DNA of 20,481 bases from a virus, in the IMG/VR virus record IMGVR_UViG_3300042261_001026, positions 1 through 20,481 of that record; one strand, written 5' to 3'. The position numbers were made by a program, and so were the translations under genes. The notes below the pieces were generated by a model that made no database searches, was not told the origin of the DNA, and worked only from the letters and a program-made list of their open reading frames with translations. Positions within the stretch are counted from its first letter, which is position 1; each line of letters begins with the position of its first letter. This document shows, in pieces, positions 17,192 to 20,481 of this stretch.

Positions 17192-18757
17192 TTAATATCC
17201 CGTAACAGGATTCCTTCGCCGACCTGCCGAAACAAGATCGACTTCACGAGAATCCTCATCATCTTTATCCTCGACTGACGGAGGATAATATCGCGTGTCT
17301 AAAAGTGATAATCGATACGCATTTTCCGGCATATCATCGTCCTCTTTTGCGGGCATTCCATTCGCACCATACATCCAATTCGTCATTTGTCGGTGATAGT
17401 TCGGCATATTATTGAAATAAAATAGGGATGGCATATTGTTTTGGGCTCTCAGAAGATCATTTAGCATCATAATTCCCTGGCTTTTATCTCTTGATGCAAT
17501 AAATAACGGAATTCCAAACGCTAATAATCCACATGCAACATGACCAAACACCGAATTTTCGTTGTTTGTATCAGCCTGAGCGGAAGGATCAATAATCGCC
17601 TTGTTCACTCTCAACTTGTAATTCAAAACCAACTTTACAATTTGATCCGCAAGGGTTTTAGGTGAACAGTTGACCAATAATTCAAGAAAATCGTACTTTA
17701 ACCCTCTCGGATCAGTCGCACGAAATAACACATAATGTGGTTTTTGAGGATGGGTATCGATCGCAATATCTACCATCCAGTCAGAAGGTATTGTAAATGG
17801 CTCTATTCGATGTATTTTTGGATTAATACTCAGTATCAGTCCGGCTTTATATGAAGGTATGCCTTCTAAACGTGCCTTCCTTTCTTCTTCAGTCAAAGAC
17901 TTAGCAAACTGATTAACGCCTTCTTGAGTTATCCCATACCCAATATTCGCTGAAATGTCGGCATTAATGTTATAAACCGACGGATCAGGCGATCCGTCCT
18001 CTAACACCGAATTTATTACATCTGTGTCTACCCACGCTTCCTTTAAAAGCGTCATCGCGAATATTTCTCTTCCTTTATAATCAACAAGTCCACGAGCGGC
18101 AGCTACTCTCACGTCACGCTTTGGCGGTTCGTCATATATAATTAAATGGTGTTTACCACCTTCCGATACACTCGAATCCTGATTATTTGACATTATCTCT
18201 ATCGTCGATTTTGTATACCTGTCTTTCCAGCTATTTCTAACTCCCATATTATTTTTTGATGAATCTACAGGCCTAGACGCTGGCCATAATTCGTCAAACT
18301 TCGGTTCTATTACCTTCTTTATATGCTGCTCCCAATCTTGCCCATACCACCGTATATATATCGGTGGTTTCCAACCTAGCGCATTCCATAGCCAGCCAGT
18401 TCTTTCTTCCGACTCCCACGGATATCTACCCATTATCACTGACAAAATGCACACAAATGATGAGAACGTCTTCGATATCCGGTTTGCTCCGGTTAATGTG
18501 ATAATCTTTATATTTGGGTTCGGAAAAACGTTAGAAGAAAAAAGCTCTTTCTGTATTGGATTAAATTCCCATTTACCTTGCGCACCTAAATAACCTTTTC
18601 CAGGATGATTAAAAAAGAAAAGTTTGTTGTCTATCTCATATTGCCGTATCTTCGCTTTTTCGGCTTCTATTCTCTTGATTATCGCTAATCTCTCTTGCTG
18701 TAAGTTTCGCAACTCCAAAAGCGACATATTATCCATCTGTTCTTGAGTTATTGGCAT
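17192..18757 (-). CDS. terL: Large terminase subunit (packaging ATPase/nuclease)
   Basis: This 521-aa protein has ATG at 18757 with no ribosome site in the short leader. Residues 90-97 are the Walker A position, GANRISKT, with Ser where the last glycine of GKT usually stands. Walker B is LIIYDEPP (about 205-212), and TLLKEAW (236-242) may be the coupling motif. The RNase-H-like nuclease domain begins at VDIAID (329-334) and has AIIDPSAQ (387-394) for the second acidic site. The acidic C-terminal stretch (VEDKDDEDSRE) follows. The N-terminal 45 residues form a charged helix. The portal gene follows after 12 bases. It packages DNA into the prohead using ATP and cuts the concatemer. A good promoter ends just before the gene. 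Confidence 0.9.
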   Translation of the reverse strand: MPITQEQMDNMSLLELRNLQQERLAIIKRIEAEKAKIRQYEIDNKLFFFNHPGKGYLGAQGKWEFNPIQKELFSSNVFPNPNIKIITLTGANRISKTFSSFVCILSVIMGRYPWESEERTGWLWNALGWKPPIYIRWYGQDWEQHIKKVIEPKFDELWPASRPVDSSKNNMGVRNSWKDRYTKSTIEIMSNNQDSSVSEGGKHHLIIYDEPPKRDVRVAAARGLVDYKGREIFAMTLLKEAWVDTDVINSVLEDGSPDPSVYNINADISANIGYGITQEGVNQFAKSLTEEERKARLEGIPSYKAGLILSINPKIHRIEPFTIPSDWMVDIAIDTHPQKPHYVLFRATDPRGLKYDFLELLVNCSPKTLADQIVKLVLNYKLRVNKAIIDPSAQADTNNENSVFGHVACGLLAFGIPLFIASRDKSQGIMMLNDLLRAQNNMPSLFYFNNMPNYHRQMTNWMYGANGMPAKEDDDMPENAYRLSLLDTRYYPPSVEDKDDEDSREVDLVSAGRRRNPVTGY

Positions 18758-18770
18758 CGGTTTATTTTTT

Positions 18771-18800
18771 ATAATAGCTATCCTGTGGATAACTTGTCAA
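18771..18800 (-). promoter_or_regulatory. Sigma70-type promoter for terL, overlapped by DnaA-like boxes
   Basis: On the minus strand TTGACA (18795-18800) is followed by 18 bases and TATTAT (18771-18776). The -35 hexamer is consensus and the -10 differs at one position. A start about seven bases further would leave a leader of only about 6-8 nt before the terL ATG, with no ribosome site. The -35 hexamer lies inside one DnaA-like box and the spacer contains a perfect TTATCCACA. Control by DnaA is therefore possible but not shown. Confidence 0.6.
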
Positions 18801-18848
18801 TAACTTTGTTAATAACCTATGTATAACCTGTGAATATTTTGTGGATAA
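18784..18848 (+). repeat. Six phased DnaA-box-like 9-mers (candidate origin or DnaA-binding array)
   Basis: Read on the plus strand, 9-mers start at 18784 (TGTGGATAA), 18795 (TGTCAATAA), 18807 (TGTTAATAA), 18818 (TATGTATAA), 18829 (TGTGAATAT) and 18840 (TGTGGATAA). Spacing is 11, 12, 11, 11, 11 bp, about one helical turn, all in the same orientation. The first and last are the exact consensus DnaA box (TTATCCACA on the other strand); the four between match 7 of 9. Directly beyond is a very AT-rich stretch (about 18849-18910), as in an unwinding element. Binding by DnaA is inferred. Confidence 0.65.
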
Positions 18849-18911
18849 CTTAACTCTTTTTTAAATAAAAACATCGTATTTAAAATAAAAAATCAATGTA
18901 TTGTATGGGAA
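18849..18911. other. AT-rich stretch beside the DnaA-like array (possible unwinding element)
   Basis: This 63-bp stretch is almost entirely A and T, with runs such as CTTTTTTAAATAAAA and TTTAAAATAAAAAA. It contains no plausible gene. Next to phased DnaA-like boxes it resembles the unwinding element of a bacterial or plasmid origin. AT-rich spacers are also common in this genome, so the role is tentative. Confidence 0.4.
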
Positions 18912-18940
18912 TTGAATTTCATCAAAAAGAAAAATACAAT
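18912..18940 (+). promoter_or_regulatory. Sigma70-type promoter for a small plus-strand RNA
   Basis: TTGAAT (18912-18917) and TACAAT (18935-18940) are separated by exactly 17 bases. The -10 matches consensus at five of six positions and the -35 at four of six. It points away from terL and lies directly before a hairpin and an intrinsic terminator, so initiation near 18947 would give a transcript of about 66 nt. Confidence 0.5.
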
Positions 18941-18946
18941 TAAGAT

Positions 18947-19012
18947 GTACGTGCTTAACTGCACATCAAAAAGCAAGCCAAGCTATGTATTTCTAGTTTG
19001 GCTTTATTTTTT
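18947..19012 (+). ncRNA. Candidate small RNA (hairpin plus terminator)
   Basis: The interval runs from the predicted start of the plus-strand promoter to the T-tract of the terminator and contains no convincing open frame. The first hairpin pairs GATGT (18944-18948) with ACATC (18963-18967), plus an inner GC/GC closing a six-base loop. If the start is at 18947, part of this arm is lost and the inner GTGC/GCAC form (18951-18954 with 18961-18964) remains. The second hairpin is the terminator. The RNA would be antisense to any minus transcript reading from the small-terminase gene to terL. It could be a regulator or, given the DnaA-like boxes, a primer-type RNA. It matches no class I recognise. 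Confidence 0.42.
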
Positions 19013-19013: not shown

Positions 19014-19230
19014 ATAAAAATTAGCCCATTTTGTTTTTTCGTGCCTGGAGGTAGACCGATAATAGAAAGTTCACCCACCGATACCCCCACCCACCCACCG
19101 GCGCGCGTGCCTGTGCTTGCACCCACATTACATATACAAAATAATAGGATAATGTCGCATAATGTATGTTCTGTTAAGCAAGCTACTTTCAATATTTTAT
19201 TATCGTGACGCTAAAATATTGGAATAACTA
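19014..19230. other. Non-coding spacer between terminase genes
   Basis: Apart from the G-quadruplex motif there is no supported gene here. A GC-rich patch (about 19095-19122) carries GCGCGC and the small dyad GTGCTTGCAC. A near-direct repeat ATAATGT occurs twice about ten bases apart around 19150-19166. A pac or cos recognition site could lie in such a region, but none was identified. Confidence 0.45.
19074..19099 (-). other. G-quadruplex-forming motif
   Basis: The plus strand is C-rich here. On the minus strand it reads as G-runs of three, three, five and three, separated by T, T and a seven-base loop (TATCGGT), with an extra GG at the start. This satisfies the usual four-tract quadruplex rule with very short loops. 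It lies on the minus strand between the small-terminase gene and terL, in otherwise AT-rich DNA, and would be in RNA transcribed toward terL. Formation is predicted, not shown. Confidence 0.6.
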
Positions 19231-19950
19231 TTACTTTACATAATTATTTTCATCATTTTTTGGCTGATTTTCGTCGATTTTAGTCGGTTTGGACGATGCA
19301 AACTCGGCGTCTATGACACCGCTTGCTCTCAACTCCGTCTCCTTGTCGCGTATACGTCTGTCTAGCTGTGCAAGGGCGTCACTTTGACTATCAATCGCAG
19401 TTTGAGCGTGCGCAATCGTAGCTGTACTTTGTCCTGATAACAATCTTGCTTTGTCTATACAAATCGACGCCATGATTGTTAGTTGATAGGCATTCGCGAC
19501 GTCAAGTTTCGCCGGCTCAAATGCACGGGTTAACGCATCTTTTGCTTTAGCAATCAACAAATCAGGCAAATTTTGCAAAATCCGGTCTTGATAATCGCGT
19601 AGTTTTGTTGTGTCGATATTGTAGAGATCGGTACACCAGCAACACACCGTATTTTCCGGTATCGCCAATGCCGTGCCGATGTGCGAGCACGTAAACCCAG
19701 CGCGATTGAGAGCAACCGCTAGTATTTTTTCGTCCGGGTGATAATTTCTGTAAGGTTTTCTCGCGCCCGATCCGCCATATTTTTGGCCTGAGCGTCGTGA
19801 GTGTCGAGCCGCTATATTTTGCGCTATTGCGTCTACGTCTAGATTGAGTTGCTCCGCGATCTCGAGCGTTTCGGCTTGCCCGATCATATTTGGCCGCGCT
19901 GGCTGGAGTTGCGTTGGTGATTTGATTATGCCCTGTTTGACATGTCCCAT
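19231..19950 (-). CDS. HTH protein, probable small terminase subunit
   Basis: This 239-aa protein has ATG at 19950 with no ribosome site. Residues 74-106 (EKILAVALNRAGFTCSHIG, then ALAIPENTVCCWCTDLY) form a helix-turn-helix. Upstream is a basic segment ARHSRRSGQKYGGSGARKPYRN that could bind DNA. Downstream, LPDLLIAKAKDAL and NAYQLTIMASICIDKARLLSGQSTATI match the helix common to many phage small terminases and related HTH proteins. DALAQLDRRIRDKETEL (191-207) is a likely coiled coil for oligomerisation. Small terminases recognise the packaging site and load the large subunit. Against a simple call, it is separated from terL by 473 bp, and its DNA is clearly richer in G+C than the downstream genes. 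A transcription regulator is the main alternative. Confidence 0.65.
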   Translation of the reverse strand: MGHVKQGIIKSPTQLQPARPNMIGQAETLEIAEQLNLDVDAIAQNIAARHSRRSGQKYGGSGARKPYRNYHPDEKILAVALNRAGFTCSHIGTALAIPENTVCCWCTDLYNIDTTKLRDYQDRILQNLPDLLIAKAKDALTRAFEPAKLDVANAYQLTIMASICIDKARLLSGQSTATIAHAQTAIDSQSDALAQLDRRIRDKETELRASGVIDAEFASSKPTKIDENQPKNDENNYVK

Positions 19951-19959
19951 AAGTAATAG

Positions 19960-19968
19960 ATTATACCA
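19960..19968 (-). promoter_or_regulatory. Extended -10 promoter element before the small-terminase gene
   Basis: The minus strand reads TGGTATAAT, a perfect extended -10 (TG, one base, TATAAT). The ATG follows after nine bases, so a transcript starting here would be almost leaderless, consistent with the missing ribosome site. There is no -35 match at the usual spacing, where a dyad lies instead. Confidence 0.45.
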
Positions 19969-19996
19969 GTTTGTGCATTCAAATGCACGAGCTGGT
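19965..19996. promoter_or_regulatory. 32-bp dyad, candidate operator
   Basis: Two 16-base arms match as inverted repeats at 13 of 16 positions: ACCAGTTTGTGCATTC and AAATGCACGAGCTGGT. The core GTGCATT/AATGCAC is perfect. It overlaps the -10-upstream region of the small-terminase gene, so a dimeric repressor could block it. As plus-strand RNA the mismatches at positions 6 and 8 become G-U pairs, so a hairpin is an alternative reading. Confidence 0.5.
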
Positions 19997-20102: not shown

Positions 20103-20132
20103 TTGACAATAACGATAACATACATATATACT
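20103..20132 (+). promoter_or_regulatory. Strong sigma70-type promoter for the rightward gene
   Basis: Consensus TTGACA (20103-20108) is followed by 18 bases and TATACT (20127-20132; one mismatch). A second TATACT overlaps at 20132-20137. Transcription would begin near 20139 and read through a leader of about 270 nt into the plus-strand gene at 20409. The opposite direction from the late operon suggests a divergent control region. Confidence 0.6.
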
Positions 20133-20190
20133 ATACTATATAGTCAATATTTAATTTAACTATTAATTAGTTGTTATCAATATTGATTAT

Positions 20191-20208
20191 AGATAGTAGA
20201 TAGATAGT
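20191..20208. repeat. Short GATA-type direct repeats
   Basis: AGATAGT (20191-20197) is directly followed by AGATAGATAGT (20198-20208), giving three GATA units in the early leader of the rightward transcript. They could bind a repressor or be simple-sequence drift in AT-rich DNA. Confidence 0.35.
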
Positions 20209-20242
20209 TTGATCATTGACAACAAAATACAACAAATCGGAG

Positions 20243-20353
20243 CAACGACGCCGGTTGGCCTACCTGAGACTAGCAATCGTGAGGTAGGTTTTGAGACGGG
20301 GTACGTGCCGTACGGCAAGTCAAGGCGGGCTGGAGTGAGCCCGCTGGCCGTTG
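20243..20353 (+). ncRNA. GC-rich multibranch structured leader RNA element
   Basis: A closing stem pairs CAACG (20243-20247) with CGTTG (20349-20353) and, after a two-base bulge, GCC (20250-20252) with GGC (20346-20348). Inside are three hairpins. The first is CCTACCT (20259-20265) with AGGTAGG (20282-20288), extendable by two G-T pairs. The second is TGCC (20306-20309) with GGCA (20314-20317), inside a perfect 12-base palindrome. The third is GCGGGCT (20325-20331) with AGCCCGC (20338-20344), with loop GGAGTG. GC content is far higher than in the flanks. It lies in the leader of the rightward gene. It could be a riboswitch-like or protein-bound leader, or a guide-type RNA. I did not recognise a known consensus. 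Confidence 0.5.
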
Positions 20354-20365
20354 GGAGTATTTTAT

Positions 20366-20387
20366 TAATCATCCATTCGGGTGATTA
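20366..20387 (+). promoter_or_regulatory. Hairpin directly upstream of the rightward ribosome site
   Basis: TAATCATCC (20366-20374) pairs with GGGTGATTA (20379-20387) around the loop ATTC, nine pairs including one G-T. It is not followed by a T-run, so a terminator is unlikely. It ends eleven bases before GAGGTG, so it may influence translation start. Confidence 0.5.
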
Positions 20388-20408
20388 TCAAATATTCGAG
20401 GTGTAAAA

Positions 20409-20481
20409 ATGAAAATAACCGAAAAAATGCTTTTAGATAATTATGTGGGTATTACAAACGGGATAGATAGTATATCAGATA
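20409..20481 (+). CDS. Start of a rightward gene, partial, function unknown
   Basis: ATG at 20409 is preceded by GAGGTG five bases upstream, and the frame stays open to the window edge for 24 codons (MKITEKMLLDNYVGITNG..). It is the only supported plus-strand gene and is driven by the strong upstream promoter. Too little is visible for a family call. The residues do not resemble the N-terminus of the IscB nuclease family (no PLMP motif) or a typical retron reverse transcriptase. Being divergent from the late operon, it may belong to early or replication genes. Confidence 0.6.
   Translation, partial: MKITEKMLLDNYVGITNGIDSISD

Follow-up and report, generated by a model that had tools for sequence, protein, structure and literature searches.

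A helically phased array of six DnaA-box 9-mers overlies a candidate terminase promoter in a phage genome fragment

DnaA is the best conserved bacterial initiator and its box is common to bacteria in general, while phages outside a few models are, to our knowledge, not usually thought to use it. In the halves of the Escherichia coli origin oriC, weak sites lie exactly 2 bp apart in one direction, strong sites serve as their anchors, and R4 and C1 are separated by 3 bp (PMC4451416). Repression by DnaA-ATP is known for mioC, where it acts through five boxes within and close to the promoter, and for dnaA (PMC4585315), and boxes carried on plasmids titrate DnaA in vivo (PMC5835720). For phages, multiple DnaA boxes have been described in the injection stop signal region within the first-step-transfer DNA of T5-like phages (PMC13250531), and an Ori-Finder prediction has been reported for one Pseudomonas phage; a search of the open-access literature found no paper on phage-wide DnaA-box arrays.

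The window analysed here is the whole of IMG/VR virus record IMGVR_UViG_3300042261_001026, a linear fragment of 20,481 bp that extends just 1.6 kb past the array under study. The minus strand carries all of the structural genes, which include a head-closure protein, a capsid (Mu gpT-like), an SU10-type portal and the large terminase gene terL (17192–18757). TerL gave no Pfam or PHROG match, and its identity was confirmed from motifs and predicted fold: the P-loop (GANRISKT), the YDEP motif and the nuclease aspartates were found in the alignment with relatives, and the structural model matched the D6E large terminase (Foldseek E 2e-14) as well as the large terminases of HK97 and Sf6. A putative small terminase gene (terS-like; 19231–19950, minus strand) encodes a helix-turn-helix near residues 72–110 followed by long helices in a low-confidence model, which was built from a single sequence and was of too poor a quality for a fold search. 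The terS-like gene and terL are separated by 473 bp and the array lies within this gap, in agreement with the sequence-only reading, which had placed it in an intergenic gap between packaging genes.

Six DnaA-box 9-mers follow one another in one direction on the minus strand (18784–18848). Box 1 (18784–18792) and box 6 (18840–18848) are exact copies of the strict consensus TTATCCACA, whereas box 2 (TTATTGACA, 18795–18803), box 3 (TTATTAACA, 18807–18815), box 4 (TTATACATA, 18818–18826) and box 5 (ATATTCACA, 18829–18837) each carry one mismatch to the relaxed consensus TTATNCACA and two to TTATCCACA, giving the order strong-weak-weak-weak-weak-strong. The starts of the boxes are separated by 11, 12, 11, 11 and 11 bp, with gaps of 2, 3, 2, 2 and 2 bp between them. 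The original description, six same-direction 9-mers 11–12 bp apart with two exact boxes flanking four 7-of-9 matches, was thus borne out, the former by the coordinates and by shuffling and the latter against the strict consensus. Single boxes with one mismatch are not enriched in the window (29 observed vs 28 expected); the same-strand chain with steps of 11–12 bp contains six boxes here, and no chain longer than two arose when the window was dinucleotide-shuffled 300 times or when positions 18700–19000 were shuffled 5000 times, so that the array is far beyond chance. An accidental or simple-repeat array with no DnaA role, to which the AT-rich surroundings and the presence of only two exact boxes might point, is highly improbable, given these shuffles and the fact that unrelated phages share this phased motif.

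The arrangement resembles the half-arrays of E. coli oriC (R5M-tau2-I1-I2 and C3-C2-I3-C1) in its one-way weak boxes 2 bp apart, and it resembles the R-box anchors of oriC in that strong boxes adjoin the weak ones, with one 3-bp anchor gap, as between R4 and C1. The features of a cooperative DnaA array, namely strong and weak boxes together, a single direction and gaps of 2–3 bp in helical phase, are present. Unlike oriC, the phage array has no demonstrated DNA unwinding element (DUE), no opposed second half and no identified IHF or Fis sites, and it overlies a candidate late-gene promoter.

This promoter candidate is of the sigma-70 type (TTGACA-18-TATTAT; 18771–18800, minus strand), matches the consensus at 11 of 12 positions and is one of three matches of such quality in the 20-kb window. 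The last six bases of box 2 form its −35 element, the mismatch of that box making the perfect TTGACA, while box 1 occupies the spacer, and the ATG of terL lies 14 bp past the end of the −10 element; judged by sequence, it is the best promoter candidate for terL. A Shine-Dalgarno sequence is absent from terL and present in most other genes of the window, which is consistent with a very short leader. As at DnaA-repressed promoters, the boxes overlap the candidate promoter, recognised by its consensus match, of the gene downstream. The E. coli mioC and dnaA promoters likewise have strong and weak boxes clustered within and around them, and by analogy their repression by DnaA-ATP and the titration of DnaA by such a cluster may be counted as a further likeness; the phage locus differs in having a terminase gene downstream, six boxes in an unbroken phased chain, and binding that is predicted.

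Behind the array lies an AT-rich, easily melted stretch (about 18850–18905) that could serve as an UP element or a DUE. It ranks in the least stable 1% or so of 50-bp windows, and elsewhere in the window there are several stretches of equal or lower stability, so that the AT-rich block described earlier is real but unexceptional. The block bears on the reading of the array as a DnaA-dependent phage origin, in which a DnaA filament and the adjoining block would melt the duplex and load the host helicase. The oriC half-array geometry, the adjacency of the block and the confinement of the boxes to a single intergenic place in most of the sampled viral records all agree with such an origin. The order of R1 and DUE in E. 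coli is, however, the opposite of that seen here, where the block lies on the 5′ side of the TTATCCACA strand. The origin reading is further weakened because the block is ordinary within the window, AT-rich flanks are not a consistent feature of viral arrays, and several isolates carry their arrays at sites other than their known origins, including Berlinviruses, whose array beside terL lies away from what we take to be a T7-type primary origin near gene 1. It is weakly supported, and we regard it as rather unlikely. Of the roles offered by the sequence-only reading, the DnaA-controlled switch gained support, because the terL promoter candidate sits inside the array, and the origin lost it.

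Phased arrays of this kind were observed widely in other phages. When IMG/VR was searched for three boxes in tandem separated by 2 bp, at least 120 matches were obtained, where a rough count from the fixed bases gives a chance expectation of well under one. In a second scan of sampled viral contigs, with gaps of 0–20 bp left free between boxes, gaps of 2 bp (120) and 3 bp (68) made up 188 of 336, gaps of 4 bp were few (5), gaps of 5–7 bp were not found, and longer gaps of 9–16 bp showed a second mode at 12–13 bp; the two modes represent phasing at one and two helical turns. The arrays are intergenic in 193 of 216 cases and are flanked by AAAG before and G after the box, and the AAG that precedes box 6 here is found in most viral arrays. 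The reversed pattern gave no matches in 100 array-bearing records, which were chosen for the pattern and do not provide an unbiased rate. Overlap with a promoter was considered as a general feature and rejected, as good promoters occur at 15% of 130 viral arrays vs 18% of other intergenic gaps, and promoter control is therefore not a rule of the class. Arrays are also carried by isolates, among them Berlinviruses, SP6-like, N4-like and T5-like phages, Lactococcus phage WRP3, Streptomyces phage Faust and microviruses, and arrays of this class may have more than a single role. The same 9-mer is shared by phages of Lactococcus, Klebsiella, Vibrio and Streptomyces and by microviruses, which have no terminase, and one sequence common to phages of such hosts points to DnaA.

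This distribution in unrelated virulent phages, together with plasmid titration, also suits a pure decoy, in which the phage copies would sequester DnaA and the position of the array would have no role, the aim being to prevent initiation in the host or to relieve host genes such as nrdAB of their repression by DnaA. In the T5-like phage Spc35 the array is part of the left terminal repeat (about 5483), within the first-step-transfer DNA. The present locus is like the T5-type injection stop signal in being a non-coding phage region with multiple DnaA boxes; the T5-like boxes differ in lying in pre-early DNA, with proposed roles in DNA transfer, and not at a terminase promoter. A decoy alone would leave the exact overlap with the terL promoter candidate unexplained, and both it and the aim ascribed to it seem unlikely.

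The position of arrays relative to terL was tested in the 41 array contigs in which terL was detected, counting 2.5 kb to either side. Thirteen arrays lay upstream, where 4.6 were expected, and none downstream, where 4.0 were expected; when eight contigs of one presumed lineage, assigned by eye, were left out, the upstream count was 6 vs 3.6 expected (P = 0.12). The link to regions upstream of terL is thus suggestive, a lead and not a rule, because the excess comes mostly from that one lineage. One contig (L132) has a terS-terL pair with the array some 36 bp upstream, and in two contigs of about 36 kb (G001, L013 61–174; G021, L078 13832–13955) the array is situated in the overlap between the contig ends, upstream of terS/terL and apparently near the genome terminus. 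Berlinviruses P483, A7 and NJ2, which are T7-like, are similar to this phage in having the same 9-mer family in one direction, with a period of 11–12 bp, beside terL (12-bp period in P483, L229 3450–3580, and in A7, L228 1–150), but their arrays are beyond the 3′ end of terL and not over its promoter. In P483 the array separates terL from the early genes and seems to be located at the genome end. The arrays of P483 and A7 occupy the place at which T7 has short repeats near the terminal repeat. Such positions, the location of the present array between a terS-like gene and terL, and the imbalance of thirteen to none raise the alternative of a pac/SRR-like element for packaging or for the genome end, to which the small terminase or some other phage protein would bind in place of DnaA. 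The weaker association once the one lineage is removed, and the occurrence of the 9-mer across phages of diverse hosts and in the terminase-free microviruses, argue instead for a conserved host protein and make this alternative improbable.

The conservation of the boxes in relatives could be followed at a distance. No nucleotide relatives of the terL region were found in INPHARED, searches for close relatives through terL, portal and capsid gave only distant ones or none, and the nearest terL relatives (37–48% identity) have no array at terL, a point against the operator reading given below. The closest of these (L002) carries a pair of exact DnaA boxes with a separation of 31 bp, or about three turns (2238–2277), some 55 bp before a TTGACA-17-TATTAT match and about 8 kb upstream of its terL. 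A conserved element in the terS-terL gap common to this phage and two other sequences (L003 and L004) was sought by alignment, which showed nothing convincing.

Several further features were observed around the gap. The terS-like gene is also without a Shine-Dalgarno sequence and has an extended −10 element (TGGTATAAT) 9 bp before its ATG, which is abutted by a 30-bp imperfect palindrome (CCAGTTTGTGCATTCAAATGCACGAGCTGG, 19966–19995; fold computed), and the two together (19950–19995, minus strand) likely represent an operator and a near-leaderless terS-like transcript. On the plus strand, a strong terminator hairpin (18947–19012, z −4.6) follows a weak promoter (18912) and a smaller hairpin, possibly specifying a short RNA between terL and terS. 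A GC-rich patch rich in C-tracts (19050–19125), just after terS and within the otherwise AT-rich gap, is a possible cos/pac candidate. At 20103–20405 (plus strand), a promoter-like TTGACA-18-TATACT and the GC-rich stretch with inverted repeats that follows it precede an ORF at 20409 and resemble a structured leader; the region had no match in Rfam, and Rfam and tRNA searches of the window found none.

Taken as a site for host DnaA, the array is strongly supported by its low-affinity geometry of the oriC kind and by the recurrence of its 9-mer among phages whose hosts are unrelated, and DnaA very probably binds it. Its use as a DnaA assembly site acting as an operator over the terL/late promoter, released by titration, is put forward more tentatively, at a little short of an even chance. 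The strong boxes at the ends would anchor DnaA, and the weak one-way boxes 2–3 bp apart would let DnaA-ATP fill in as a cooperative filament covering the −35 element and spacer of the terL promoter, so that free DnaA-ATP would keep the packaging and structural operon off. Replication of the phage would multiply the arrays, with six boxes per genome copy, and free DnaA-ATP would fall; hydrolysis of DnaA-ATP linked to the forks would lower it further and the late operon would open, the array doubling as a DnaA titration site. That the late operon is held off until the copies draw DnaA away follows the logic of mioC and dnaA repression and of plasmid titration. Control by DnaA is suggested for a promoter known from its consensus match alone, and its sign, repression or activation, is not settled by sequence, repression being favoured by analogy. 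The fuller proposal, in which a DnaA-ATP filament blocks the packaging and structural genes, the phage times late expression by counting its copies and the class is widespread, is possible, and we hold it with less confidence still.

That phased arrays occur across many unrelated phages, in one case over a terminase promoter candidate, suggests that phages may commonly read or capture DnaA. The copy number of the phage genome could also be linked in this way to the timing of late genes without a phage-encoded late activator, and on the fuller proposal helically phased DnaA arrays would represent widespread and little described elements of phage control or host takeover.
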